A DNA stretch of 64,000 nt from Lentilactobacillus kefiri (GTDB lineage Bacteria; Bacillota; Bacilli; Lactobacillales; Lactobacillaceae): contig NZ_BJVK01000006.1 of assembly GCF_007989105.1 (NCBI RefSeq), positions 1 through 64,000 of the forward strand, in the 5' to 3' direction. This document shows, piece after piece, positions 18,985 to 33,827 of the stretch. The notes beneath the pieces are model-generated. The model did not search any database. It was not told where the DNA came from and saw only the letters and a list, made by a program, of their open reading frames with translations. How positions within the stretch are numbered: position 1 is the first letter of the stretch; every line of letters starts with the position of its first letter. The position numbers were made by a program, and so were the translations under genes.

Positions 18985-20841
18985 ATGAAGAAGGATTGGC
19001 TTCAAAAAATTGTTATATCGGCCGGATTTGCTGTACTGGCGTTGATGGGTACAGGAGCCGCTACAACTCAACAAGTTCAAGCGAAAACATCCAATGTTTC
19101 AGATTCAAAGCAACAGTTGGTTGATATTGTACTGCGGCCGAAAAGCCAAAAGTCGCTTCATAAATTTGTTTACAATTCAGTTGATCCAACTTCATCGAGT
19201 TATCGAAAATTTGTAACATCATCGACGTTTTCCAAGCAGTTCGGTCAAAGTTCAAAACAGGTTCATGCGCTTCAATCATATCTGAAAAAGCACCACTTGA
19301 AGACGACAACATACAAGGGAAACTTGGTGATGGCGGTTCAAGGTTCCACTAAGAATATTGAAAAGGCGTTTAAGGTCAATTTGGTCAATGTGAATAATGG
19401 TGAGGTCAAGTATCAAAAGGCCAACCGGAATCCCAAGTTGCCGAAAAAACTGTCAAAAAGTGTCTATACGGTGTTTGGCTTGTCGAATTATTCATTGTTT
19501 GCTTCATCCAAAAACCAGTTTCAACCGTCTTCGCTGCATACAAAGCTGACAAACTCTTCAATCGCCAGCACAACTAAGAAATATTCACCAACACGGTTCG
19601 TCCGTCGGTACAACCTACAGTCGCTGTATGATAATGGGGCGACTGGCCGAAGTAAGACAATCGGGATTATTTCATTTGCCAATTTCCATCCAAACGATGT
19701 TTATCGTTACTGGGATGACGAGGGAATTAACGTTAAATCCAATCGGCTGAGCGTTTATCGGACCAATCATTATAAGGGTAGCTGGGATGGCTATGATGAA
19801 ACAACCATCGATGTTGAACAGGCAGGGGCGATTGCTCCCGGGAGCAACATTCGGACGTATATTGCCAAACCCAATATTACGGGAATGGTTAATTCAATTG
19901 CTGCCGCCGTCGGTCAAAATGTCGCAGATACACTGTCCTTAAGCTGGGGACAAAGTGAAGCCCAAGTCGCTTATGAAATGAAACAGGGAATTACACCCAA
20001 AAAGTATAATCAGATTATGAATTTGTTGTTTGAACAAGCCGCTGCTCAAGGGATGAGCGTGTTCACTGCAACTGGTGATAATGGTGCTTATGACGGCATT
20101 ACCACCGGTCTGACATCCGGATTATCGGTTGATACACCATCAAACTCGCCATATGTGACGTCCGTTGGCGGAACGACCCTTCCCAAAACATACACTGTCA
20201 ATAAGAAAAAAGTGTCCATTAAACAAGAGCGTGCCTGGGGCGCGGACTTTCTGTATCCAAACTATAAACACCAACGTTTCTTCGGCAACTTGGACATGCT
20301 TCAAAGCTTTTTTGCCGGTGGTGGCGGTGGATTCAGCAAGTATAATTCCGTCCCGAGTTATCAAAAGGGTGTCAGTGGTGTAGGAACTTATGCCGCAACC
20401 GATTTGTGGAAGTTTAAATATGGTCGGCCAGTCTTGCTTAAAAAGCCGGTTAACAAAACCGGCAAGGCCAGTGGCCGGAATTTGCCGGATGTTTCAGCGA
20501 ATGCCGATCCTAACACCGGTTATAGTATGTTTATTACGCCTAAGAATAATCGTAATTCCAAAGGTCAGTGGCTGATCACCGGTGGAACCAGCGTGGTTGC
20601 ACCTCAAATGGCAGCGGCCAGCGTTTTAATGTCTGATTTCAACACCAATGGCCGATTAGGCTTCTGGAATCCTCAAATTTATCGTTTTGCTAAACGGTCA
20701 ACTTCGCCGTTTAATCCCTTGGACAGTCGAACCAACAATACAAACCTGTATTACACAGGCCAGCCTGGGAAGATTTATAATCAGGCAACCGGGCTGGGAA
20801 CCATTGATTTCACCGCTTTGAACAAAGCATTTAATAATTAA
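18985..20841 (+). CDS. Secreted S53 (sedolisin/kumamolisin-type) serine-carboxyl peptidase
   Basis: A 618-residue preproprotein. A signal peptide is clear (basic start, hydrophobic core IVISAGFAVLALMGTGA, then TTQQVQA). The activation domain (about residues 40-165, with SVDPTSSSYRKF) is typical of pro-kumamolisin. The catalytic set is complete: Glu272 and Asp276 in YDETTIDVE (E-x3-D), oxyanion Asp365 in ATGDNGAYDG, and Ser536 in GGTSVVAPQMAA. The C-terminus (LYYTGQPGKIYNQATGLGTID) is the calcium-site region. Such enzymes are acid-active endopeptidases released after self-cleavage of the propeptide. It is second in a run of genes with a small membrane protein before it and a CPBP protease 11 bases after it. 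A paralogue lies at 31868-33754. Confidence 0.93.
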   Translation: MKKDWLQKIVISAGFAVLALMGTGAATTQQVQAKTSNVSDSKQQLVDIVLRPKSQKSLHKFVYNSVDPTSSSYRKFVTSSTFSKQFGQSSKQVHALQSYLKKHHLKTTTYKGNLVMAVQGSTKNIEKAFKVNLVNVNNGEVKYQKANRNPKLPKKLSKSVYTVFGLSNYSLFASSKNQFQPSSLHTKLTNSSIASTTKKYSPTRFVRRYNLQSLYDNGATGRSKTIGIISFANFHPNDVYRYWDDEGINVKSNRLSVYRTNHYKGSWDGYDETTIDVEQAGAIAPGSNIRTYIAKPNITGMVNSIAAAVGQNVADTLSLSWGQSEAQVAYEMKQGITPKKYNQIMNLLFEQAAAQGMSVFTATGDNGAYDGITTGLTSGLSVDTPSNSPYVTSVGGTTLPKTYTVNKKKVSIKQERAWGADFLYPNYKHQRFFGNLDMLQSFFAGGGGGFSKYNSVPSYQKGVSGVGTYAATDLWKFKYGRPVLLKKPVNKTGKASGRNLPDVSANADPNTGYSMFITPKNNRNSKGQWLITGGTSVVAPQMAAASVLMSDFNTNGRLGFWNPQIYRFAKRSTSPFNPLDSRTNNTNLYYTGQPGKIYNQATGLGTIDFTALNKAFNN

Positions 20842-20852
20842 GGAGACCATGT

Positions 20853-21566
20853 ATGGCAGATGAAAGAAAGTTAACATTCGGCGATTACTTTGAACGGCTG
20901 ATGATTTTTGTTGGTCTGATCGTGTTGGTCGGATCAGTCCAGCTTCCCGTCATGTTCATTGCTCGGGGAAAATTGTCTTCCGTAGGGAATTATGCAGTCG
21001 CTGCCGTTTATTTATTAGGATTTTTGGTTGCCATCTGGCTTGCGCAGTTGGCCTATCGAAAATATGGCCGACGGCAGATGAAAAAGGTCACTTGGTCAGA
21101 CATTAAGCTAATTGTGATTGCCTGGGTAGGCTTCATTTTACTGGAATTTGTATTAGGCAATCTTAACAAGCTTTTATACCATGTGACTCAAACGGATAAT
21201 AATCAAGCAATTCAGACAATTCTGACCAGTAATCATTTAACACTGGTTTTAATGGCTTTTACAGCAATCTTCTGTTCACCAATTCTGGAGGAAACTATTT
21301 TTCGGGGTTACTTGATTACCGCATTTTTTAAATCCTCAAGCAAATGGCTGCCAATTGTTATCAGTGGTTTCGCTTTTGCATTTCCTCACATGGATCCAAA
21401 TCCCGCTCGGTTCAATATCATCAGTTTTTTGACCTATGCCATTTTAGGCGGTGTCTTGGCCTATTTGTATGTGTCAACTAAAAATTTGAAGGTGTCAATT
21501 GGGCTGCATTTTTTGAATAATTTGGTTGCTGTTGGCGCGATGGTTTTATCAGTTTTTTATATGTAA
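20853..21566 (+). CDS. CPBP-family intramembrane metalloprotease
   Basis: A 237-residue membrane protein with about seven hydrophobic helices. The three CPBP/Abi motifs are present: EETIFRG (E-E-x3-R), FAFPHMDPN (F-x3-H) and HFLNN (H-x3-N). These residues coordinate a metal in the membrane. Relatives process prenylated proteins in eukaryotes, while in lactobacilli they are linked with bacteriocin self-immunity and with protein maturation at the membrane. The start ATG follows AAGGAGACC, 11 bases after the S53 protease stop, so the two are likely translated from one mRNA. A role in handling that protease or its peptides is possible but not shown. Confidence 0.88.
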   Translation: MADERKLTFGDYFERLMIFVGLIVLVGSVQLPVMFIARGKLSSVGNYAVAAVYLLGFLVAIWLAQLAYRKYGRRQMKKVTWSDIKLIVIAWVGFILLEFVLGNLNKLLYHVTQTDNNQAIQTILTSNHLTLVLMAFTAIFCSPILEETIFRGYLITAFFKSSSKWLPIVISGFAFAFPHMDPNPARFNIISFLTYAILGGVLAYLYVSTKNLKVSIGLHFLNNLVAVGAMVLSVFYM

Positions 21567-21587
21567 TTTATTTAAGGGGTGTCAATA

Positions 21588-22697
21588 ATGGGATTTTCTG
21601 TCAAGTTAATGAATGATGTTTCAGATGGTGTAAAGGGTAAGCGAAATTTAATTACCGATGTTGCCGGCGTCAAAGTTGGTCAGGTAACCATTGATCAGGA
21701 CGATGTTCATAGTGGGGTTACTGCAATTGTTCCTCATCCCGGAAATGTTTTCAGGCATAAAGTTCCAGCCGCATCCTGCGTCATTAACGGGTTTGGGAAA
21801 AGTGTCGGGTTGGTGCAAATCGATGAACTTGGAACTATCGAAACCCCGATTGTTTTAACGAATACATTTGCGGTCGGAACTGCCATTAATGCGCTTACCA
21901 AGCAAATGTTGGCTCAGAATCCAGAAATTGGTGACACTACCAGCACAGTTAACCCAATTGTGATGGAATGTAATGATGGTGATGTATCCAATATTCGTAA
22001 AATGGCGATTAGTGAACAAAACGTGACTGATGCGTTAACAGCTGCCGGTCAGACTTTCGACGAGGGCGCCGTTGGCGGTGGCCGTGGGATGATGTGCTAC
22101 GACTTAAAAGGCGGCATTGGTTCTTCTTCCAGAATCGTCACGGTTGATGAGAAGCATCAGTATACTGTCGGCGCGCTGGTTATGACCAATTATGGTTATT
22201 TAACCGATTTTATCGTCAACGGGGCGCCGGTTGGGGCACCGTTGGCCAAAATGCTCGCTGAAGATAAGAAAAAAGAAGAAAAGGGTTCGATTATTACAAT
22301 ATTGGCCACCGATGCGCCGCTAAATTCCCGACAATTAAAGCGGATGGCTAAACGGGCGACGGTTGGAATTAATCGGACCGGTGGCTATATCGGCAACGGT
22401 AGTGGCGAAATTGTCCTGGCATTCTCAACTGCCAACCAGGTGGCACATTTTGAGCAAACCGAATTTGATACCGTAACGCGGTTCAATGATAATCAGATTG
22501 ATCTGTTTTTCCGAGCAACGGCAGCGGTCGTTGATGAATCAGTTTTGAGCTCGATGATTCATGCTGAATCGGTTGTTGACCGCAAGGGACGTCTTCGGTT
22601 GAATTTAGTTGATGCATGCAAGAAGTTGTCGTCACAGCATTCGGAATATACGGAAATGTTGGAAAAGGCTTTGTCGCAGCTCGGGGTAACTTTATGA
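21588..22697 (+). CDS. P1-family (DmpA/BapA-type) N-terminal nucleophile aminopeptidase
   Basis: A 369-residue protein of the DmpA/BapA family, which cuts itself into two chains and uses the new N-terminal serine as nucleophile. The N-terminal half shows NLITDVAGVKVGQVTI and GVTAIVPHP. The expected cleavage region is GRGMMCYDLKGGIGSSSR, with breakage likely between Gly and the first Ser of GSSSR. Members release D- or beta-amino acids or normal residues from short peptides. No signal peptide is visible, so it is cytoplasmic. I choose the ATG at 21588 after AAGGGGTGTC; a GTG three codons upstream overlaps the ribosome site. Its stop overlaps the next start as ATGA. Confidence 0.9.
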   Translation: MGFSVKLMNDVSDGVKGKRNLITDVAGVKVGQVTIDQDDVHSGVTAIVPHPGNVFRHKVPAASCVINGFGKSVGLVQIDELGTIETPIVLTNTFAVGTAINALTKQMLAQNPEIGDTTSTVNPIVMECNDGDVSNIRKMAISEQNVTDALTAAGQTFDEGAVGGGRGMMCYDLKGGIGSSSRIVTVDEKHQYTVGALVMTNYGYLTDFIVNGAPVGAPLAKMLAEDKKKEEKGSIITILATDAPLNSRQLKRMAKRATVGINRTGGYIGNGSGEIVLAFSTANQVAHFEQTEFDTVTRFNDNQIDLFFRATAAVVDESVLSSMIHAESVVDRKGRLRLNLVDACKKLSSQHSEYTEMLEKALSQLGVTL

Positions 22698-23245
22698 ATG
22701 AAAAAGTCATTTTAAACGCTGAAAATATTCGTCAGCTTGATTGGGGCGCCATTAATGGCTGTGAGGCTGCAAGTTTATTGGAAGGACTTCATTATCAACA
22801 CCATGCTCGCCAGTTGAATTACGGTGAATTTTTACTTCAAATGCCGATTAGTTCGGATGCCAATCCTTACCATGGATTTGGCGGTTCACCGTTTAAAAAT
22901 CAACCCGGAAATTTTGAAGCTATTTTTACCAGACCATTAGTTTGGTGGGGCTCATCATATGGCCATTTAACTGAACTTTCCGGCGCGGATCCCGACTGGC
23001 TTTATTGCAGTGTCCGTCAAGGTGATCCGGTTTTAGTATTTGTCACGATTCACTTTGAAGCCCCTGAATGGGACGAGTATCCATTTGGGCGGGTTCCAGC
23101 GAACAACCATGCCGTCCTTTTAGATGGTGTTGACACCCATCAGGTTCATGTGAGTGATCCAATTGACGGTCAGTACTGGTTGTCTAAGGCGACTTTCGAA
23201 CAGATATACAATGCCCGACGAATGGCAATCCAAATTAATAAGTAA
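22694..23245 (+). CDS. C39-like cysteine peptidase, cytoplasmic
   Basis: A 183-residue protein with the pattern of the peptidase_C39_2 (C39-like) domain. The nucleophile is probably the cysteine in AINGCEAASLLEGLHY, the base the histidine in NNHAVLLDGVD, and the acid the aspartate in VSDPIDGQYW. The spacing and the phrases around GFGGSPF fit the family. There is no signal peptide or membrane segment, so it would act in the cytosol. It is translationally coupled to the DmpA-type peptidase through an ATGA overlap, which suggests a joint peptide-processing task. The substrate is unknown. A hairpin terminator follows. Confidence 0.75.
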   Translation: MNEKVILNAENIRQLDWGAINGCEAASLLEGLHYQHHARQLNYGEFLLQMPISSDANPYHGFGGSPFKNQPGNFEAIFTRPLVWWGSSYGHLTELSGADPDWLYCSVRQGDPVLVFVTIHFEAPEWDEYPFGRVPANNHAVLLDGVDTHQVHVSDPIDGQYWLSKATFEQIYNARRMAIQINK

Positions 23246-23270
23246 AGTTCACATCAAAATCGCATATTAG

Positions 23271-23317
23271 TACAGGCTTTCTGAAATTAATATTAGAAAA
23301 AGCCTGTTTTTTTTATA
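23271..23317 (+). terminator. Terminator after the protease/peptidase run
   Basis: ACAGGCTTTCT pairs imperfectly with AGAAAAAGCCTGT and is followed by eight T. It separates the S53/CPBP/DmpA/C39 group from the substrate-binding lipoprotein gene. Confidence 0.8.
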
Positions 23318-23386
23318 CATTTATGCTAAATTAGAATTAAGATTCTTTTGTTAATACTTTTACATATTTTATGGGAGGCTTATATC

Positions 23387-25006
23387 ATGCATTTATCTCG
23401 TGGAGTGGCTGCACTTGCTGGGGTTGCAAGCATCGCACTTGTCTTATCAGGCTGTGGCCAAAATTCTGGTCAACAGAAGAAGACAATTACGACTTCTGCA
23501 GATACAGAGTTGACAACGGTTGATCCATCAAAAACGACCGCTGTTGGAACTTTTAATGTTTTGAATAACGTTGATGAAGGTTTGGTTCGTTTGGGCAAGG
23601 ACAGTAAGGTTGAACCCGGAATTGCAACGGACTGGACCGTTTCAAAGGACGGCAAGACCTATACCTACAATCTTCGTAAGGGCGCTAAATGGAGTAATGG
23701 TGATCCGGTAACGGCCCAGAATTTCGTCTATTCATGGCAGCGGACTTTGAATCCAAAGACCGCATCACAATATGGTTATCTGTTCTCAGGCATCAAGAAT
23801 GCCGACAAGATTCAAAACAAGAAAGCAAAGGTTTCAACGTTGGGAATTAAAGCCGACGGCAAATATAAACTGACTGTCAAACCTGAGCAACGCATTCCTT
23901 ACTTTAACTTATTGATGGGATTCCCAGTGTTCTTCCCACAGGATTCAAATGCTGTTAAGAAATTCGGTAATGATTACGGAACTTCATCCAAGACCCAGGT
24001 TTATAACGGTCCATTTACATTAACCAAATGGACAGGAACAAATAATACTTGGACTCTTAAGAAGAATAAAGATTATTGGGATAAGAAGCAGGTTAAGTTG
24101 GATAACATTAACTTCAAGGTCCAACCAGACACTTCAACGTCATTGAACTTGTACAACCAAGGTAAACTTGATATGGCCCAATTATCAGCTACTCAAGCTA
24201 AACAAATGGGTAACAAGAAAGATTTGATTTCTCGTAAGCAATCTTCAAATTACTACATTGCAGTTAACCAAAAAAGCAAAGTCTTCAAGAATTTGAAGAT
24301 TCGTCAAGCAATGTCAATGATCATTAATCGGAAGGTCTTGGCCAACAAGGTTATGGGTGGCGGTGCCATCAATAATAAGAGCTTTGTTTCAGAAGGATTG
24401 GCTGTTTCACCTAAGAATGGCACTGACTTCACCAAAGACACGACTGTTCCCGCTTCAATGGACTACAACCCAACCAAAGCTAAACAGCTGTTTAAGCAGG
24501 GTCTCCAAGAAGTTGGTCGGACATCACTTCATTTCACTTTGTTGAACTCAGATGGCAGCGATCAAAAGCAGTTGAGTGAGTATCTCCAAAGCGCTTTACA
24601 AAAGCTTCCTGGACTTAAAGTTACACTGAATAATATTCCAGGACGGGCAATTCTTTCACGTCAAGCCAGCGGCCAATTTACCGTCACTGTTGCCAACTGG
24701 TTTGCCGACTTCTCCGATCCAATCACATTCTTAAATATTTTAACTTACAACAACCCAAGCAACATTTCCGGCTGGAAGAATTCTCAATATGATTCATTGA
24801 TTAAGGATAGTAATGCAGATGACGGCAGCAACGCCAATGCTCGTTGGGATGATATGGTCAAGGCACAAAATATTGCTTTGAAAGACCAAGCCATTATTCC
24901 ACTTTATCAATCCGGTGAAAAATGGATGGTTAATTCCAAAGTTAAGGGAATTGTTTACAACACTGCCGGTGCCAACTACAATTTCAAGGAAGCATATGTT
25001 AAATAA
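23387..25006 (+). CDS. Oligopeptide-binding lipoprotein (OppA family), orphan
   Basis: A 539-residue extracellular solute-binding protein of family 5. The start ATG at 23387 follows GGGAGG and gives a lipoprotein signal ending in the lipobox LSGC. The mature part shows the family signature around WSNGDPVTAQNFVYSWQRT and later LNILTYNNPSNISGW. It delivers peptides to an Opp/Dpp-type ABC importer. No permease or ATPase gene is adjacent, so it must use a transporter encoded elsewhere. It is followed 20 bases later by the dipeptide epimerase gene, which resembles the Bacillus ykf-dpp arrangement in which a binding protein (DppE) for murein tripeptide sits with recycling enzymes. Specificity for murein peptides is inferred from that context only. 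Confidence 0.92.
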   Translation: MHLSRGVAALAGVASIALVLSGCGQNSGQQKKTITTSADTELTTVDPSKTTAVGTFNVLNNVDEGLVRLGKDSKVEPGIATDWTVSKDGKTYTYNLRKGAKWSNGDPVTAQNFVYSWQRTLNPKTASQYGYLFSGIKNADKIQNKKAKVSTLGIKADGKYKLTVKPEQRIPYFNLLMGFPVFFPQDSNAVKKFGNDYGTSSKTQVYNGPFTLTKWTGTNNTWTLKKNKDYWDKKQVKLDNINFKVQPDTSTSLNLYNQGKLDMAQLSATQAKQMGNKKDLISRKQSSNYYIAVNQKSKVFKNLKIRQAMSMIINRKVLANKVMGGGAINNKSFVSEGLAVSPKNGTDFTKDTTVPASMDYNPTKAKQLFKQGLQEVGRTSLHFTLLNSDGSDQKQLSEYLQSALQKLPGLKVTLNNIPGRAILSRQASGQFTVTVANWFADFSDPITFLNILTYNNPSNISGWKNSQYDSLIKDSNADDGSNANARWDDMVKAQNIALKDQAIIPLYQSGEKWMVNSKVKGIVYNTAGANYNFKEAYVK

Positions 25007-25026
25007 ATCATTGGGAGTGACGTTGA

Positions 25027-26100
25027 TTGGAACCCGTTATTAAGCACATTGATTTCAAGGAAGCCGCGGTTCCTCTAAAGAGGCCGTTTAAAACGGCTTT
25101 AAGGACAGTGACGACGGCTCAAACATTAATCGTCAAGGTGACTGACAGTAATGGTCGGATCGGTTATGGTGAAGCTGCACCGACTCCGGTTATTACCGGT
25201 GATACACTGCCGAGTATTGAAGAGGCTGTTGGTCATATTATCGGTCGCAAGATTATTGGGAAAAGACTTGCGGATTCTGAAGATATTAAGTCCACAATTG
25301 AAGAGTCGATGGTTCATAACTCCAGTCCCAAAGCGGCTTTGAATATTGCCGTTAACGATTTACTGGCCCAATCATACGGGGTTCCGCTTTACCAGCTGCT
25401 GGGCGGCCATTCTGATAAGATCACGACAGATTATACTGTGAGTGTCGGATCAATTGATGACATGATTAATCAGGCAAAGGATCTCATCGCCAAAGGCTTC
25501 ACAACTTTGAAAATTAAAGTTGGCGATGATTCCGAGCAAGCCGATCTTGACAAAATTGTTGCCATCAGAGGGGCTGTTGGGCCTGAAATAAAGATTCGCC
25601 TGGATGCCAATCAAGGCTGGCACCCGAAACAAGCTGTTGCGGTGATTAATCGAATGCAGGATTTGAATCTCAATATTCAATTGGTTGAACAGCCAGTTAA
25701 GGCAGTGGATTTTGAGGGCATGGCATATGTGACTCACCACACAACAACCATGATTATGGCTGATGAAAGTATCTTTTCCGTTGCGGATGCCGCAAGGATT
25801 ATCGCAATGGGTGGCTGCGATATTATCAACCTTAAGTTGATGAAGGCCGGTGGCATTGACAACGCCTTAAAAATCAACACGTTGGCAGAGGCTGCCCGCA
25901 TTCCATGCATGGTTGGCAGCATGATTGAGTCGTCGGTTTCAGTGACTGCGGCAGCACATTTGGCCGCGGCTAAACGCAACATTAAATATGTTGATCTGGA
26001 TGCCTCGATGATGTTTACCGACAACCCTGTGAAGGGTGGAATCATCAATAAACGGAATGAAATTACTTTTCCAGCGTTATCTGGATTAGGATTTGAATAG
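25027..26100 (+). CDS. Dipeptide epimerase (L-Ala-D/L-Glu epimerase type, enolase superfamily)
   Basis: A 357-residue enolase-superfamily enzyme with the dipeptide epimerase pattern. After the capping domain come the KxK base (TLKIKVGDD), the three metal ligands (RLDANQGW, LVEQPVK, MADESIF), the second lysine base (NLKLMKAGG) and the C-terminal specificity loop (SMIESSVSVTAAAH, VDLDASMMF). The known member YkfB converts L-Ala-D-Glu from murein to L-Ala-L-Glu so normal peptidases can cut it. The start is TTG at 25027 with GGGAGTG upstream. It lies between the binding lipoprotein and the NlpC/P60 endopeptidase, matching a murein-peptide recycling role. Confidence 0.9.
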   Translation: MEPVIKHIDFKEAAVPLKRPFKTALRTVTTAQTLIVKVTDSNGRIGYGEAAPTPVITGDTLPSIEEAVGHIIGRKIIGKRLADSEDIKSTIEESMVHNSSPKAALNIAVNDLLAQSYGVPLYQLLGGHSDKITTDYTVSVGSIDDMINQAKDLIAKGFTTLKIKVGDDSEQADLDKIVAIRGAVGPEIKIRLDANQGWHPKQAVAVINRMQDLNLNIQLVEQPVKAVDFEGMAYVTHHTTTMIMADESIFSVADAARIIAMGGCDIINLKLMKAGGIDNALKINTLAEAARIPCMVGSMIESSVSVTAAAHLAAAKRNIKYVDLDASMMFTDNPVKGGIINKRNEITFPALSGLGFE

Positions 26101-26101
26101 G

Positions 26102-26140
26102 AATGGATCGTACTGAAATGACTCAGTGCGATCCATTTTG
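26102..26140 (+). terminator. Probable terminator or attenuator after the epimerase
   Basis: AATGGATCGTACTGA pairs with TCAGTGCGATCCATT around a short loop, followed by only a modest T run (TTTTGTAT). A TATAAT at 26174-26179 suggests a new start for the next gene. Confidence 0.6.
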
Positions 26141-26233
26141 TATCCTAATTCAACGTCTTGCTGGCTAAAGGACTATAATATATGTATACTAAAAATTATT
26201 AATGATAAACAAAAATCGAATGGAGGTGCTCAG

Positions 26234-27124
26234 ATGGAAACAAGACGTATAAAAGTACCAGTTGCAACTATCTGGAAATCTAAAAAATCACCAAGGAAGG
26301 TTGATAAGCCTGCTTTGGATGGCGATGTTAAAAAGTGGGTTGAACAAATGAGTGACAAGGATTCAATTGCTTTGTCAGACGATGATTTGTTGGAAACCCA
26401 AGCATTGTTTAACGATGAGGTCATCATTGACCACTTTGATGGTGACTGGGCTAAAGTGTATGTCCCAAGTCAGCGCGATGATTCTGACTCAAGAGGTTAT
26501 CCCGGCTGGGTACCGACAAAACTATTAAGTGACAGTCAGATCAGTTATCCACCAATCACCTCGATTGTCAGAATTGCTGTTCGAACCGCAAAGCTGTTTG
26601 ATGAAGATAAAAAGCCAATTCTGGAGATGAGTTTGGGAACGGTTTTACCTCAAATTGGCATTGACGGAGATTACATCGAAGTTGAGACACCAATTGGAAA
26701 GGGCTTTATTGAAAAATCAGCTGCGACACTTCCGTTTGTGGGGGCTAACGCTGGTGAAACAATGGTCCAAATGGCCCGCCAGTTTCTTGGAGAGCGATAT
26801 CTTTGGGGTGGCACAAGCTCATATGGGTTTGACTGTTCCGGATTTGTTTACACACTTCACCGAGTTCTTGGGTTCGATATTCCTCGGGATGCTGATGACC
26901 AACAGGAAAACGGTCTGCCATTAGCGCCGGAAGAGATTCAACCTGGCGATCTGGTTTACTTTGCTTATGATCACGGCACCGGTTATGTTCACCATGTTGG
27001 CATGTATATTGGCAATGGTGAAATGATTGAATCCCGAACACCTGGTGCAAAAGTGGATATTGCGAAATTGACAGAACCTAAATTTTCCTCAGAGTTCGCT
27101 GGATTCAGGAGATATTGGCGATGA
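26234..27124 (+). CDS. NlpC/P60 endopeptidase, YkfC-like (gamma-D-glutamyl-diamino acid endopeptidase)
   Basis: A 296-residue protein with two SH3b-like domains in the first 180 residues and a C-terminal NlpC/P60 domain. The catalytic cysteine is Cys201 in SYGFDCSGFVYT and the histidine is His254 in YVHHVGMYIG; ESRTPGAKVDIA follows. YkfC of Bacillus cuts between D-Glu and the diamino acid in muropeptides with a free N-terminal L-Ala. As in that enzyme, there is no signal peptide, so it works in the cytosol on imported peptides rather than on the wall. The ATG at 26234 follows TGGAGG. It overlaps the next gene by four bases (ATGA). Confidence 0.9.
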   Translation: METRRIKVPVATIWKSKKSPRKVDKPALDGDVKKWVEQMSDKDSIALSDDDLLETQALFNDEVIIDHFDGDWAKVYVPSQRDDSDSRGYPGWVPTKLLSDSQISYPPITSIVRIAVRTAKLFDEDKKPILEMSLGTVLPQIGIDGDYIEVETPIGKGFIEKSAATLPFVGANAGETMVQMARQFLGERYLWGGTSSYGFDCSGFVYTLHRVLGFDIPRDADDQQENGLPLAPEEIQPGDLVYFAYDHGTGYVHHVGMYIGNGEMIESRTPGAKVDIAKLTEPKFSSEFAGFRRYWR

Positions 27125-27876
27125 AAAATGATCTGGCTGATAAAATTGAGCCGATTTTTTCAGATGTCCAATTTAATTATGGCTTGCTGATTCGGATGAA
27201 TGGCCAAACATTGGTTGAACACAGAAGTAGGGCGTCGTTTCCATCGGCTTCCTTGATTAAGCTGGCAATATTGGCCGATATTTTAGATAGTCACATTCAA
27301 TTGGACCAAATGATTCCTGTTCATGAAGATCAATTAGTTGGCGGTGCTGGGGTGCTGCAACTCCTTCAACCACGCGACTGGAAATTACGAGATTTGTTAG
27401 CGTTAATGATTAGTGATTCTGACAATTCGGCAACAAACGTTGTGATTTCATTCATTGGTATGGAACACGTTCAAAATTATCTTAAAAGTAATGGCTTCGA
27501 ACAAACCAAGCTCAACCGTTATCTGATGGACGGGCGTTCATTGGCCCTTGGCATTGATAATTTCACCAGTGCAGAAGAGAGCTTGAGGCTTCTGGATTCG
27601 GTTTTGAGCCATGGTGCAACCATTGCTTCATGGTTTAAGGACCAACAATTTCGTTATAAATTGCCAGGTAATTTTGATGAATCAAATGAGAAGGTTGTTG
27701 TATACAATAAGACTGGCGAAGGGTATTTAATTGACCATGATGTTGCAAAAGTTGTATATAACAATAAAGCGGTTGACGTTGGACTGCTGACATCTGGTTC
27801 AAACCATCGAATGGATACACTTCACATTTTTAATCAGGTTGGCCAAACATTATTGGACTGGCTTAAAATGGAATAA
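27121..27876 (+). CDS. Cytosolic serine hydrolase of the class A beta-lactamase fold
   Basis: A 251-residue protein with all three motifs of class A beta-lactamases: SxxK at Ser44-Lys47 (SASLIKL), SDN at 100-102 (SDSDNSATN) and KTG at 197-199 (NKTGEG). The ESALAL-like region reads NRYLMDGRSLALGIDN and does not show a clear Glu166 equivalent, so it may not be a true lactamase. There is no signal peptide; the start ATG overlaps the stop of the YkfC-like gene. It is therefore an intracellular enzyme co-translated with a muropeptide endopeptidase. A carboxypeptidase, esterase or amidase acting on D-amino-acid-containing peptides is a reasonable guess but unproven. Confidence 0.85.
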   Translation: MKNDLADKIEPIFSDVQFNYGLLIRMNGQTLVEHRSRASFPSASLIKLAILADILDSHIQLDQMIPVHEDQLVGGAGVLQLLQPRDWKLRDLLALMISDSDNSATNVVISFIGMEHVQNYLKSNGFEQTKLNRYLMDGRSLALGIDNFTSAEESLRLLDSVLSHGATIASWFKDQQFRYKLPGNFDESNEKVVVYNKTGEGYLIDHDVAKVVYNNKAVDVGLLTSGSNHRMDTLHIFNQVGQTLLDWLKME

Positions 27877-27912
27877 AGTAACTTCATTTAGGATTAAACG
27901 TTTATTAATATG

Positions 27913-27956
27913 AAAGGGCTGAAACATCATTTACAGATGTTTCAGCCCTTTTTTGT
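27913..27956 (+). terminator. Terminator after the serine hydrolase gene
   Basis: AAGGGCTGAAACATC pairs with GATGTTTCAGCCCTT around a short loop, followed by TTTTTTGTA. It lies between convergent units. Confidence 0.92.
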
Positions 27957-31867: not shown

Positions 31868-33754
31868 CTAATTAGAAGAATTTTCAGATCCAAACTTGTT
31901 ATAAAGTTTGTCAAAGTTAATGGTTCCCAAACCGGTTGCCTGGTTGTAAAGCTTGCCCGGTTGACCCGTGTAGTATAAGTTGTTGTTATTGTCTGCGTCA
32001 TCAAGAACTGTAAATGGTGAATCAGTTTCGGCAGCAAACTTATAAATTTGTGGATTCCAGAAACCTAATGGGGTATCGCGGCCACTGTTCATGACAGCAT
32101 TTGCAGCTGCCATTTGTGGGGCGACGAAACTTGTTCCGCCATTGACACTCCAGGACTTAATTGGATGATTGGTTAACTTCTTGGTCTTTTTGTCATACGA
32201 AAGATTATTACCTGATACGTAGGTTGCATAACCAGTCAGATTGTCAGCATTCGCTGAGACATCTGGTAAGTTACGACCGCCAGCGGTACCTGTGATAATT
32301 CTTGGATTCTTTTGGATTAGGAAGCCGCCTTTGACGTATTTAAGAAGTTCAATGGCTCTGAATGTGTTAACACCAGGAACACCTAATTGATATCTTGGGG
32401 TTGGGTTTAACAAGGAGAAGCCGCCACCGCTTCCGGCATATATGGATGGCTTGGATTCCGGCTTGCTGTAAGTGTCACCCCAGGCCCGTTCTTTATTAAC
32501 GGTGACGAGTTTGCCATCGATAATCTTAGTGTACGGAAGGGTGGTGCCACCGGTAATCACTTGGTAAGGCGAAGTTGAAAAGACATGGTTAAAGTCTTTC
32601 ATTGCCAATTCTCTTGGGCCATAGTCACCACTTGCTTTGAACACGGTAATTCCTTGAACGGCAGCCTGCTCCAACATCACATTGAAAGCATCACTATAAT
32701 CGGACATTGAGGAACTTGAATTCTGCTCCCAGTTGCTTGGTAGTTCCACATTGGGGCCAAAGCTGGTTGTCAGTTGTTTATCACGGTTATCGGAAATTGC
32801 TTTCATAAAAGTTGTGTAGTAAGTGGATGTTGAGGAGGTCTTCTGGTCAAGCGAAAGGCCAACGTAAGCATCAATATTGGCATCCGGGGCAACTGAAGCA
32901 GATTGGTTAACGTCCAATGTTGCTTCCATTTGTGGGGCACTAACACCCAGTGTCAGCATAAGGTCACCGGTCTTGTGACCGTCAACTGTGTAGATTTTGT
33001 TAATCCGGTTGGGATTGTCGTTAACGCCAACTTGATCTAAGTATGTTAAAACATCATCTTTTTTGAAATCAGAAAGGGTGATAATTCCAATTCGCTGACC
33101 TTGACCGGTTAATCCTTTGGCATACAAATTATTCAGCTGATACCGATCGGCGAATTTTAATGCACCATACTTTTTAGAAAACGAGGTCTTACTCAGATCT
33201 GTATTTGGTGATGTCGGGGCCTTTGGAATTGATGGGTTCAAACTTGATTTGGTCTTTTTTGTTTTAGGCTTCTTTGCATAAACCCCAATCACACTGATTA
33301 CCTTATCGGATAGCTTGGCAGGAAACTTTATCTTAGTCCGATATTGCTTTGAACCGATCTTGGTGCTTTTGGCATCAAACGCTTTAATCAGGTTGGCTCG
33401 GCTACCCCATACTTTTAATGCTAAATTTCCGGGATAAACCGCGGATTTCAAATGATATTTGGCAAGGTAGTTACTGAAATCACTGATTTCTGACTGACTT
33501 CTACCAAATTTGTCTGCAACCTGATCCGGTGTCAGATATTTATGAAAATTCGATGATGTCGGATCGACGGTATCATATGTGTAATCGGTCAATTGGGATT
33601 CACTTTGAGGCTTAAATGCGATATTTGCCACAACCGTATTTGAACCCTTTACTGATGGCAGCTTAAATGATGCTGCTTTGGAACTGATCGTTGAACTTCC
33701 CAAAAGAACGATTATTCCGCTCAATAATCCTAAGGTTATTCTGTTTCCCCTCAT
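31868..33754 (-). CDS. Second secreted S53 (sedolisin-type) peptidase
   Basis: A 628-residue preproprotein, paralogous to the S53 enzyme at 18985. The signal peptide is RITLGLLSGIIVLLGSSTISSKA. The propeptide shows TVDPTSSNFHKYL and the GNLALKVWGSRANLIKAF region. Glu277 and Asp281 (MEATLDV, E-x3-D), Asp377 (KASGDYGPRE) and Ser542 (GGTSFVAPQMAA) form the complete catalytic set. The C-terminus (NNLYYTGQPGKLYNQATGLG) is almost identical to that of the first copy. ATG at 33754 follows AAGAAGTGG and is preferred over a start 11 codons upstream. It is monocistronic with a strong terminator. Acid-active extracellular proteolysis is expected. Confidence 0.93.
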   Translation of the reverse strand: MRGNRITLGLLSGIIVLLGSSTISSKAASFKLPSVKGSNTVVANIAFKPQSESQLTDYTYDTVDPTSSNFHKYLTPDQVADKFGRSQSEISDFSNYLAKYHLKSAVYPGNLALKVWGSRANLIKAFDAKSTKIGSKQYRTKIKFPAKLSDKVISVIGVYAKKPKTKKTKSSLNPSIPKAPTSPNTDLSKTSFSKKYGALKFADRYQLNNLYAKGLTGQGQRIGIITLSDFKKDDVLTYLDQVGVNDNPNRINKIYTVDGHKTGDLMLTLGVSAPQMEATLDVNQSASVAPDANIDAYVGLSLDQKTSSTSTYYTTFMKAISDNRDKQLTTSFGPNVELPSNWEQNSSSSMSDYSDAFNVMLEQAAVQGITVFKASGDYGPRELAMKDFNHVFSTSPYQVITGGTTLPYTKIIDGKLVTVNKERAWGDTYSKPESKPSIYAGSGGGFSLLNPTPRYQLGVPGVNTFRAIELLKYVKGGFLIQKNPRIITGTAGGRNLPDVSANADNLTGYATYVSGNNLSYDKKTKKLTNHPIKSWSVNGGTSFVAPQMAAANAVMNSGRDTPLGFWNPQIYKFAAETDSPFTVLDDADNNNNLYYTGQPGKLYNQATGLGTINFDKLYNKFGSENSSN

Positions 33755-33827
33755 ACATGCCACTTCTTTCTTGCAATATTTATACATAAATTATAACGCT
33801 ATTTGAATCAAAACCTGCTTTAGTGCC

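Follow-up and report, generated by a model that had tools for sequence, protein, structure and literature searches.

The window analysed here, a 64,000-nt stretch of the Lentilactobacillus kefiri genome, carries on its forward strand a group of genes whose predicted products suggest the use of murein peptides inside the cell. The interval 20853-27876, singled out by a sequence-only reading, opens with a conserved neighbour unnamed in that reading, a CPBP-type membrane protease (20853..21566; Pfam Rce1-like, 7.2e-22). The genes that it did name are all present and all on the + strand: an S58 peptidase of the DmpA type (21588..22697; Pfam Peptidase_S58, 1.7e-113), a C39-like peptidase with no signal peptide seen in its sequence (22694..23245; Pfam Peptidase_C39_2, 5.5e-12), an OppA/DppE-type peptide-binding lipoprotein with the lipobox LSGC in its translation (23387..25006; Pfam SBP_bac_5, 1.2e-83), a YkfB-type L-Ala-D/L-Glu epimerase (MR/MLE) starting at TTG (25027..26100), a signal-less NlpC/P60 enzyme of the YkfC type, predicted to be a gamma-D-Glu-L-diamino acid endopeptidase (26234..27124), and a signal-less 251-aa SxxK hydrolase of the class A beta-lactamase fold (27121..27876; Pfam Beta-lactamase2, 7.8e-39). 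The NlpC stop and the hydrolase start overlap as ATGA (27121..27124), the S58-C39 junction has the same overlap, and AGGAG lies upstream of the hydrolase ATG. Hairpins with T-runs, likely terminators, were found 3' of the C39 gene (23272..23315; -13.9 kcal/mol, z -4.0), of the epimerase (26104..26139; -25.1 kcal/mol, z -7.8) and, by the terminator scan, of the hydrolase (27912..27954; -27.9 kcal/mol, z -7.9), all on the + strand. Because the three hairpins split the genes, we rejected a single six-gene operon; the six named genes probably form about three transcription units, one of which is the NlpC-hydrolase pair, set apart by the hairpin after the epimerase. A promoter scan of the locus did no better than on shuffled sequences.

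The dipeptide epimerase proposed earlier proved to be of the YkfB/AEE type: its top PDB match is B. subtilis AEE (1jpm/1tkk; 6.7e-104), with which it aligns end to end, keeping the KxK and DxD motifs as KIKV and DLD, and the Mg ligands. The NlpC protein had likewise been described correctly as YkfC-like and lacking a signal. B. cereus YkfC (3h41; PMC2954226) is its top PDB match (1.2e-56) and closest solved relative, with the same substrate-binding residues. We identified the catalytic C201 and H254, SH3b domains (Pfam SH3_YKFC_2nd), and Y89 and D219, which correspond to Tyr118 and Asp256 of the YkfC signature, the readers of a free N-terminal L-Ala; all 26 aligned proteins have this Tyr and this Asp. 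The signature is complete except for S257 of BcYkfC, which is Ala in the window protein, as in DPP VI; BcYkfC also has a signal peptide whereas the window NlpC has none. Since Ala occupies this position in all 26 aligned sequences whatever the lineage, it is uninformative on substrate amidation and was rejected as a marker of amidated substrates. By sequence the NlpC protein is a YkfC-subfamily enzyme; its putative role, like that of OppA in the set, is assigned by homology only. Another lactobacillus enzyme of this subfamily, L. plantarum LytC (PMC6473061), has been proposed for stem-peptide recycling; it is predicted to be extracellular, unlike the window NlpC, and the available sections of that paper describe no beta-lactamase-fold partner for it.

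The hydrolase presents the motifs SASLIK (S44-x-x-K47), S100-D-N and K197-T-G, which together with its fold place it among the class A-fold SxxK acyltransferases, and an acid pair, E200/D205. Its AlphaFold2 model (pLDDT 93.6, pTM 0.92) matched solved structures with a VIA Z of 33.1 to 4hes and of 29.7 (rmsd 2.3) to PBP-A. The fold begins at residue 4, and the N-termini of both the hydrolase and the NlpC protein are not hydrophobic, in agreement with the earlier description of a signal-less enzyme whose start overlaps the NlpC stop. That reading had also asked what stands at the position of Glu166, which serves deacylation in class A beta-lactamases. The residue there is L135, and Leu, Met or Phe replaces Glu166 in every aligned copy; the best score against the NCBIfam class A models was 57 bits, below the cut-off of 200. 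The closest solved structure, an uncharacterised class A-like protein of Veillonella parvula (4hes), shares an LNRxxMD loop and an acid-HD motif but has Ser following KTG where the hydrolase has Glu. Thermosynechococcus PBP-A (2j7v; PMC11189452) also lacks Glu166 (Leu158). This DD-carboxypeptidase/endopeptidase, membrane-anchored unlike the signal-less hydrolase, favours D-isoGln muropeptides and keeps the amide, which it reads through Glu96; the aligned residue of the hydrolase is Gly75, invariant in alignment A1. PBP-A has Val at the Arg244 position, where the hydrolase has an acid. Among murein-linked copies, the 237 position is acidic in 44/45 and the 244 position in 40/45, so that nearly all of them have acids (E200 and D/E205) in the subsite where class A enzymes and DD-peptidases bind the leaving carboxylate. 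R230 is a possible substitute carboxylate binder.

The NlpC-hydrolase pair was adjacent in 19/19 genomes from two genera. Of the 18 loci besides the window, 15 have the same 4-nt overlap and the remaining ones overlap by 1 or 8 nt; both genes were jointly missing from three genomes of the window's genus. The sequence-only reading would have fallen had the pair rarely occurred together, and this pattern is the opposite. In 13 further Lactobacillaceae loci without YkfC, the epimerase lies directly upstream of the hydrolase. Across Lactobacillaceae, 32 of the 35 catalytically intact copies are epimerase-linked as against none of the five inactivated ones. In a survey of 250 evenly sampled Bacilli genomes, 10 of the 12 strong matches outside the family were within ~5.5 kb of a YkfB-like epimerase, nine of them on the same strand (binomial P <1e-15 even at 2% per genome). 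Because the 4-nt overlap recurs in 15/18 loci and an epimerase is near 10/12 matches, the conservation of the hydrolase with murein-peptide genes cannot be chance. The hydrolase is the last gene of ykfA-B-C in one relative (L073) and of dppE-ykfABCD in four others (L075-L078), which match the gene order of B. subtilis ykfABCD-dppE. The window shares with that system the uptake lipoprotein, the L-Ala-D/L-Glu epimerase and a signal-less YkfC; it differs in that YkfA and YkfD are not adjacent and in its extra class A-fold hydrolase, which lies 3' of YkfD in L075-L078 and is not mentioned in the literature on ykf that we examined. With OppA, YkfB and YkfC adjoining the hydrolase here and its coupling to YkfC, YkfB or YkfD conserved elsewhere, these results suggest that it is very probably a regular cytosolic component of the YkfB/YkfC pathway for murein peptides. 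The earlier idea of an intracellular murein-peptide set with a cytosolic beta-lactamase-fold enzyme coupled to a muropeptidase is thus upheld by the conserved overlap and linkage. Deep branches of the hydrolase tree were weakly supported, so specificity may vary by lineage. Several clusters also carry PTS, MurQ and MupG genes, and a signal-less class C enzyme is present in related clusters. This enzyme is a possible counterpart of B. subtilis AmiE (YbbE; PMC5061867), a muropeptide recovery enzyme that acts outside the cell on MurNAc-L-Ala.

It had been proposed that the hydrolase replaces or supplements YkfA, or cuts another D-residue bond in peptides with a D-Asp/D-Asn bridge. One candidate activity is that of a cytosolic carboxypeptidase or endopeptidase that works at D-Ala (DD or LD) and shortens imported tetra- and pentapeptides; in the window lineage it would stand in for YkfA. 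D-Ala bonds exist in every lineage, the fold relative PBP-A has this activity, and S66 (YkfA) is absent from the whole window genome, so the locus is not a B. subtilis-type ykfABCD set, and from 17/19 of the genomes carrying the pair. However, S66 is also missing in 160/251 genomes of the family, and the mixed pattern led us to reject a clean exchange of S66 for the hydrolase (nominal P 0.014, kinship ignored). S66 and the hydrolase share an operon in five genomes (L073 and L075-L078), YkfA adjoins the hydrolase in L088, and VanY-type carboxypeptidases cluster with it in six loci (L053, L055, L056, L063-L065). These co-occurrences and the acidic carboxylate subsite leave the replacement of YkfA unsupported, if conceivable in the window lineage with its lack of S66. 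Moreover, D-Ala removal would not explain the epimerase-hydrolase pairs of YkfC-less genomes, and we consider this activity unlikely. That the hydrolase supplements the pathway is supported, and the proposal that it supplements the YkfA step or cuts another D-residue bond is supported in part; a function tied to the bridge is at odds with the presence of the hydrolase in ykf operons of other families of Bacilli, provided that their walls are, as we presume, directly cross-linked.

An even less likely activity is that of a dipeptidase splitting L-Ala-L-Glu (or L-Ala-D-Glu), the step adjoining the epimerase. The epimerase is the tightest partner of the hydrolase in most lineages, the dppE-ykfABCD operons that we saw contain no dipeptidase gene, and the acidic pocket could accommodate a free amino group; yet a PepV-type dipeptidase occurs in the same six VanY-bearing clusters, and SxxK enzymes are usually acylated on D-residues. 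It is improbable that the hydrolase is a serine stand-in for YkfC acting on gamma-D-Glu-L-Lys(DAP): no full-length YkfC was found anywhere in 17 of the 18 Lactobacillaceae genomes that have the hydrolase without an adjacent NlpC, but such an enzyme would be redundant in the window genus, in g20 and in the ykf operons, all of which have an intact YkfC next to the hydrolase or in the same operon. The PTS, MurQ and MupG genes of several clusters would suit an AmiE-like intracellular MurNAc-L-alanine amidase. However, MurQ was absent from all nine window-genus genomes examined, so that MurNAc-peptide cleavage is unneeded there, ykf operons handle free peptides, and the class C enzyme may hold that role in MurQ-type clusters; we rejected this very improbable activity. 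Equally remote is a plain esterase or beta-lactamase outside murein metabolism, which the class A fold and motifs would allow but which is at odds with the missing Glu166 and with operon partners conserved across many families.

By elimination, since each of the other steps is filled by another enzyme in some lineage (the carboxypeptidase step by S66 or VanY, the dipeptidase step by PepV, the MurNAc-peptide step perhaps by the signal-less class C enzyme, the gamma-D-Glu-Lys step by YkfC), we tentatively favour, with somewhat less than even confidence, a pathway member that deamidates D-isoglutamine and so feeds the epimerase. Free stem peptides would be taken up through OppA, and YkfC would cleave the gamma-D-Glu-L-Lys bond and so free L-Ala-D-Glu; where MurT is present, as in the window genome, this dipeptide would be amidated (L-Ala-D-isoGln). 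The hydrolase would form a serine acyl-enzyme on the D-centre carbonyl, most likely taking off the alpha-carboxamide of D-isoglutamine; YkfB, whose magnesium would have to be coordinated by the free alpha-carboxylate, could then epimerise L-Ala-D-Glu and dipeptidases would complete the breakdown. The chemistry that we count in favour is the lack of Glu166 and the acids at the 237 and 244 positions. Against deamidation count R230, which might take over carboxylate binding from Arg244, and the nearest characterised relative, PBP-A, which keeps the amide. The literature searched contained no amidase of class A-type fold acting on D-isoglutamine. The bond itself, the alpha-carboxamide of D-isoglutamine, is possible rather than probable. 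Nine Bacilli genomes whose hydrolase is epimerase-linked gave no MurT match, so D-isoglutamine is not a residue of their own walls; deamidation of D-isoglutamine was rejected as a family-wide rule and is the favourite only for MurT-bearing lineages. Where a family has no MurT, this chemistry would need a different D-centre amide as its target, for example amidated meso-DAP.

Recycling of the Gram-positive wall has mostly been modelled on E. coli and B. subtilis. Yet D-glutamate is amidated in many Gram-positives, and the epimerase, as its reaction is understood, depends on a free alpha-carboxylate. No paper describing the hydrolase was found in the literature searched, in which subscription journals were thinly covered. 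A conserved extra enzyme beside YkfB and YkfC in lactobacilli and other Bacilli indicates that the recycling scheme is incomplete, and because the hydrolase keeps this company across many Bacilli, their recycling of wall peptides probably includes a step not yet assigned. With slightly more reserve than for the bond itself, we suggest that the step missing for amidated walls might be supplied by a beta-lactamase-fold enzyme of the cytosol that, through an acyl-serine, strips scavenged murein peptides of their D-centre carboxamides (those of D-isoglutamine and perhaps of amidated meso-DAP) on the way to the epimerase. The hydrolase offers a single gene for probing the use of amidated peptides and, if this suggestion is true, a beta-lactamase-fold enzyme would be put to catabolic use in the cytosol.

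All the genes that the sequence-only reading had placed in one direction indeed lie on the + strand, preceded by a CPBP protease gene (20853-21566) of the same strand: an S58/DmpA peptidase (21588-22697), a C39_2 peptidase (22694-23245; ATGA overlap with the S58 gene at 22694-22697), an OppA lipoprotein (23387-25006), an epimerase (25027-26100), an NlpC/P60 protein (26234-27124) and the class A-fold hydrolase (27121-27876), whose start overlaps the NlpC stop in another ATGA. Because hairpins with T-runs lie 3' of the C39 gene (-13.9 kcal/mol, z -4.0), the epimerase gene (-25.1 kcal/mol, z -7.8) and the hydrolase gene (-27.9 kcal/mol, z -7.9), the window genes most likely form three transcription units, the last comprising only NlpC and hydrolase. 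The genome is assembled in 118 contigs (2.49 Mb), and its gene content reads as that of a Lactobacillaceae species. The S58 and C39-like peptidase genes adjoin throughout the window genus and in loci L041 and L046. On either side of the region lies a gene for a secreted S53-type (sedolisin-like) protease (18985-20841 and 31868-33787), the two being on opposite strands, a pattern seen again in L034-L036.

The hydrolase was matched in 78 of the 251 Lactobacillaceae genomes, and we inspected 39 loci representing the best or most informative matches. NlpC lies directly upstream of it in 19/19 cases from the window genus (12 genomes sampled, 9 with the hydrolase) and a second genus, g20 (10 genomes). 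The overlap between the two genes is likewise conserved in other genomes, measuring 4 nt in 15 of the 18 loci beyond the window; of the other three, two have a 1-nt and one an 8-nt overlap. The three window-genus genomes without the hydrolase also lack a full-length YkfC. In genera without an adjacent NlpC, the epimerase is directly upstream in 13 loci, several of them overlapping. An even sample of 250 Bacilli genomes yielded 12 strong matches outside the family, of which 10 lie within ~5.5 kb of a YkfB-like epimerase, nine on the same strand (P < 1e-15 even if a chance rate of 2% per genome, a generous value, is assumed). L075-L078 present the order OppA/DppE, S66, epimerase, NlpC, ABC ATPase and hydrolase, which is dppE-ykfABCD with the hydrolase added, and three of these four have the ATGA overlap; L073 presents S66, epimerase, NlpC and hydrolase. 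Within Lactobacillaceae, 32/35 copies with intact motifs are epimerase-linked, against 0/5 copies that lost Ser or Lys. These conserved partners support the proposed membership of a murein-peptide pathway. The inactivated full-length paralogues (L051:7986-8786, L052:7983-8813, L070:7959-8720, L071:7953-8747, L072:7995-8789), from two other genera, changed Ser to Gly (two) or the active-site Lys to Asp (three); no epimerase adjoins any of them and they are possibly binding or regulatory proteins.

Other clusters hold the hydrolase as well. L055, L056 and L063 present epimerase, hydrolase, S11-like, VanY, S33 and PepV; L064 and L065 are alike except that no S11-like gene is present, and L053 carries OppA, S11-like, VanY, PepV, epimerase and hydrolase genes in a different arrangement. 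These six are apparently complete intracellular murein-peptide sets. Their VanY has no signal peptide, and the SxxK motif of the S11-like protein is intact in L053 and degenerate in L055, L056 and L063. In L059, L060, L062 and L066 the epimerase and hydrolase are accompanied by a class C enzyme without signal peptide, and several of these loci also have MurQ-type, RpiR or PTS genes; L057 and L061 combine MupG, epimerase, hydrolase and MurQ; L067 and L069 run PTS, RpiR, MurQ, class C, hydrolase. The hydrolase therefore goes with murein breakdown in several guises. The class C enzyme (SLTK; L067:6715-7734, homologues in L054, L057, L059-L062, L066 and L069) is a second cytosolic beta-lactamase-fold enzyme, found in MurNAc-salvage clusters and adjoining the epimerase in several; it is possibly a counterpart of AmiE. 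The epimerase ORF is fragmented upstream of an intact hydrolase in L059:1033-2145 and L063:8738-9824, by sequencing error or decay. In L079-L081 the hydrolase stands in one uninterrupted row with a permease, an M20 enzyme close to N-carbamyl-L-glutamate amidohydrolase and an epimerase homologue (33%).

The hydrolase matches Pfam Beta-lactamase2 and scores under all curated class A cut-offs. Its AlphaFold2 model (23 sequences; pLDDT 93.6, pTM 0.92) begins helix 1 at residue 4, leaving no space for a signal peptide, in agreement with the signal-less enzyme of the sequence-only reading. The closest structures are 4hes (Z 33.1), 4ewf (29.9), PBP-A (29.7) and class A beta-lactamases (~28). Its motifs are SASLIK, SDN and KTG. 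At the Glu166 position every aligned copy has Leu, Met or Phe, comparable to Leu158 of PBP-A, so efficient beta-lactam hydrolysis would not be expected. In class A enzymes, the residue after KTG and the Arg244 position line the substrate-carboxylate site. Murein-linked copies are set off by acids directly after KTG (44/45) and at the Arg244 position (40/45), positions assigned by sequence register in a profile alignment with solved chains. Judged by this register, the substrate would place an amine or amide at this site, which speaks against a carboxypeptidase; R230 could still serve as carboxylate binder. In seven signal-less homologues from other contexts (L085-L087, L089-L092) the residue after KTG is Ser or Trp, and the Arg244 position is usually Thr, Gln or Arg. 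The more distant class A-fold proteins of L087, L091 and L092, which have Trp after KTG, share a cluster with an amino-acid ABC transporter, an Amidohydro_3 enzyme and a 435-443 aa protein (weak HTH match).

The window epimerase aligns over its full length with the B. subtilis L-Ala-D/L-Glu epimerase (1jpm, 1tkk; 6.7e-104). For the NlpC protein the best PDB match is YkfC of B. cereus (3h41; 1.2e-56). The NlpC protein keeps every YkfC residue reading L-Ala-gamma-D-Glu (Glu83, Thr84, Tyr118, Trp228, Asp237, Cys238, Ser239, Arg255, Asp256, His290, His291; PMC2954226); the sole change is Ser257 to Ala, as in DPP VI (PMC2954226). It lacks a signal peptide, in which it resembles B. subtilis YkfC and differs from BcYkfC.

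Four bonds were set aside by elimination. A carboxypeptidase role is less likely, and the suggested replacement of YkfA is not supported, as S66 or VanY already adjoins the hydrolase in other lineages. MurNAc-peptide cleavage may duplicate the class C enzyme of the sugar clusters, and MurQ was not found in the window genus genomes. Cleavage of gamma-D-Glu-Lys would suit the 17/18 other Lactobacillaceae genomes that have the hydrolase and lack YkfC, but the window genus, g20 and the ykf operons already possess YkfC. A dipeptidase role would repeat PepV, present in six hydrolase clusters.

With these bonds set aside, we favour an amidase acting on the alpha-amide of D-isoglutamine, in a cell with MurT, which the window genome encodes. 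Enolase-superfamily epimerases hold the substrate alpha-carboxylate by magnesium, and L-Ala-D-isoGln should therefore be no epimerase substrate before deamidation. SxxK enzymes acylate on an L-D arrangement, which L-Ala-D-isoGln has. The hydrolase would strip the alpha-amide from this dipeptide and the epimerase would act afterwards. PBP-A indicates that the fold is able to read the D-isoGln amide (PMC11189452), although its amide reader, Glu96, aligns to an invariant Gly in the hydrolase copies. MurT co-occurrence across Bacilli does not support the amidase as a general rule: G379, G443, G433, G452, G303, G346, G355, G410 and G316 have a linked hydrolase and no MurT match. In such genomes, either the substrate is another D-centre amide or peptides scavenged from foreign bacteria, or the amidase proposal is wrong. 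We found no published description of the hydrolase in the open-access papers searched. The reactions proposed here are candidate assignments, and the place of the hydrolase in the pathway is supported.
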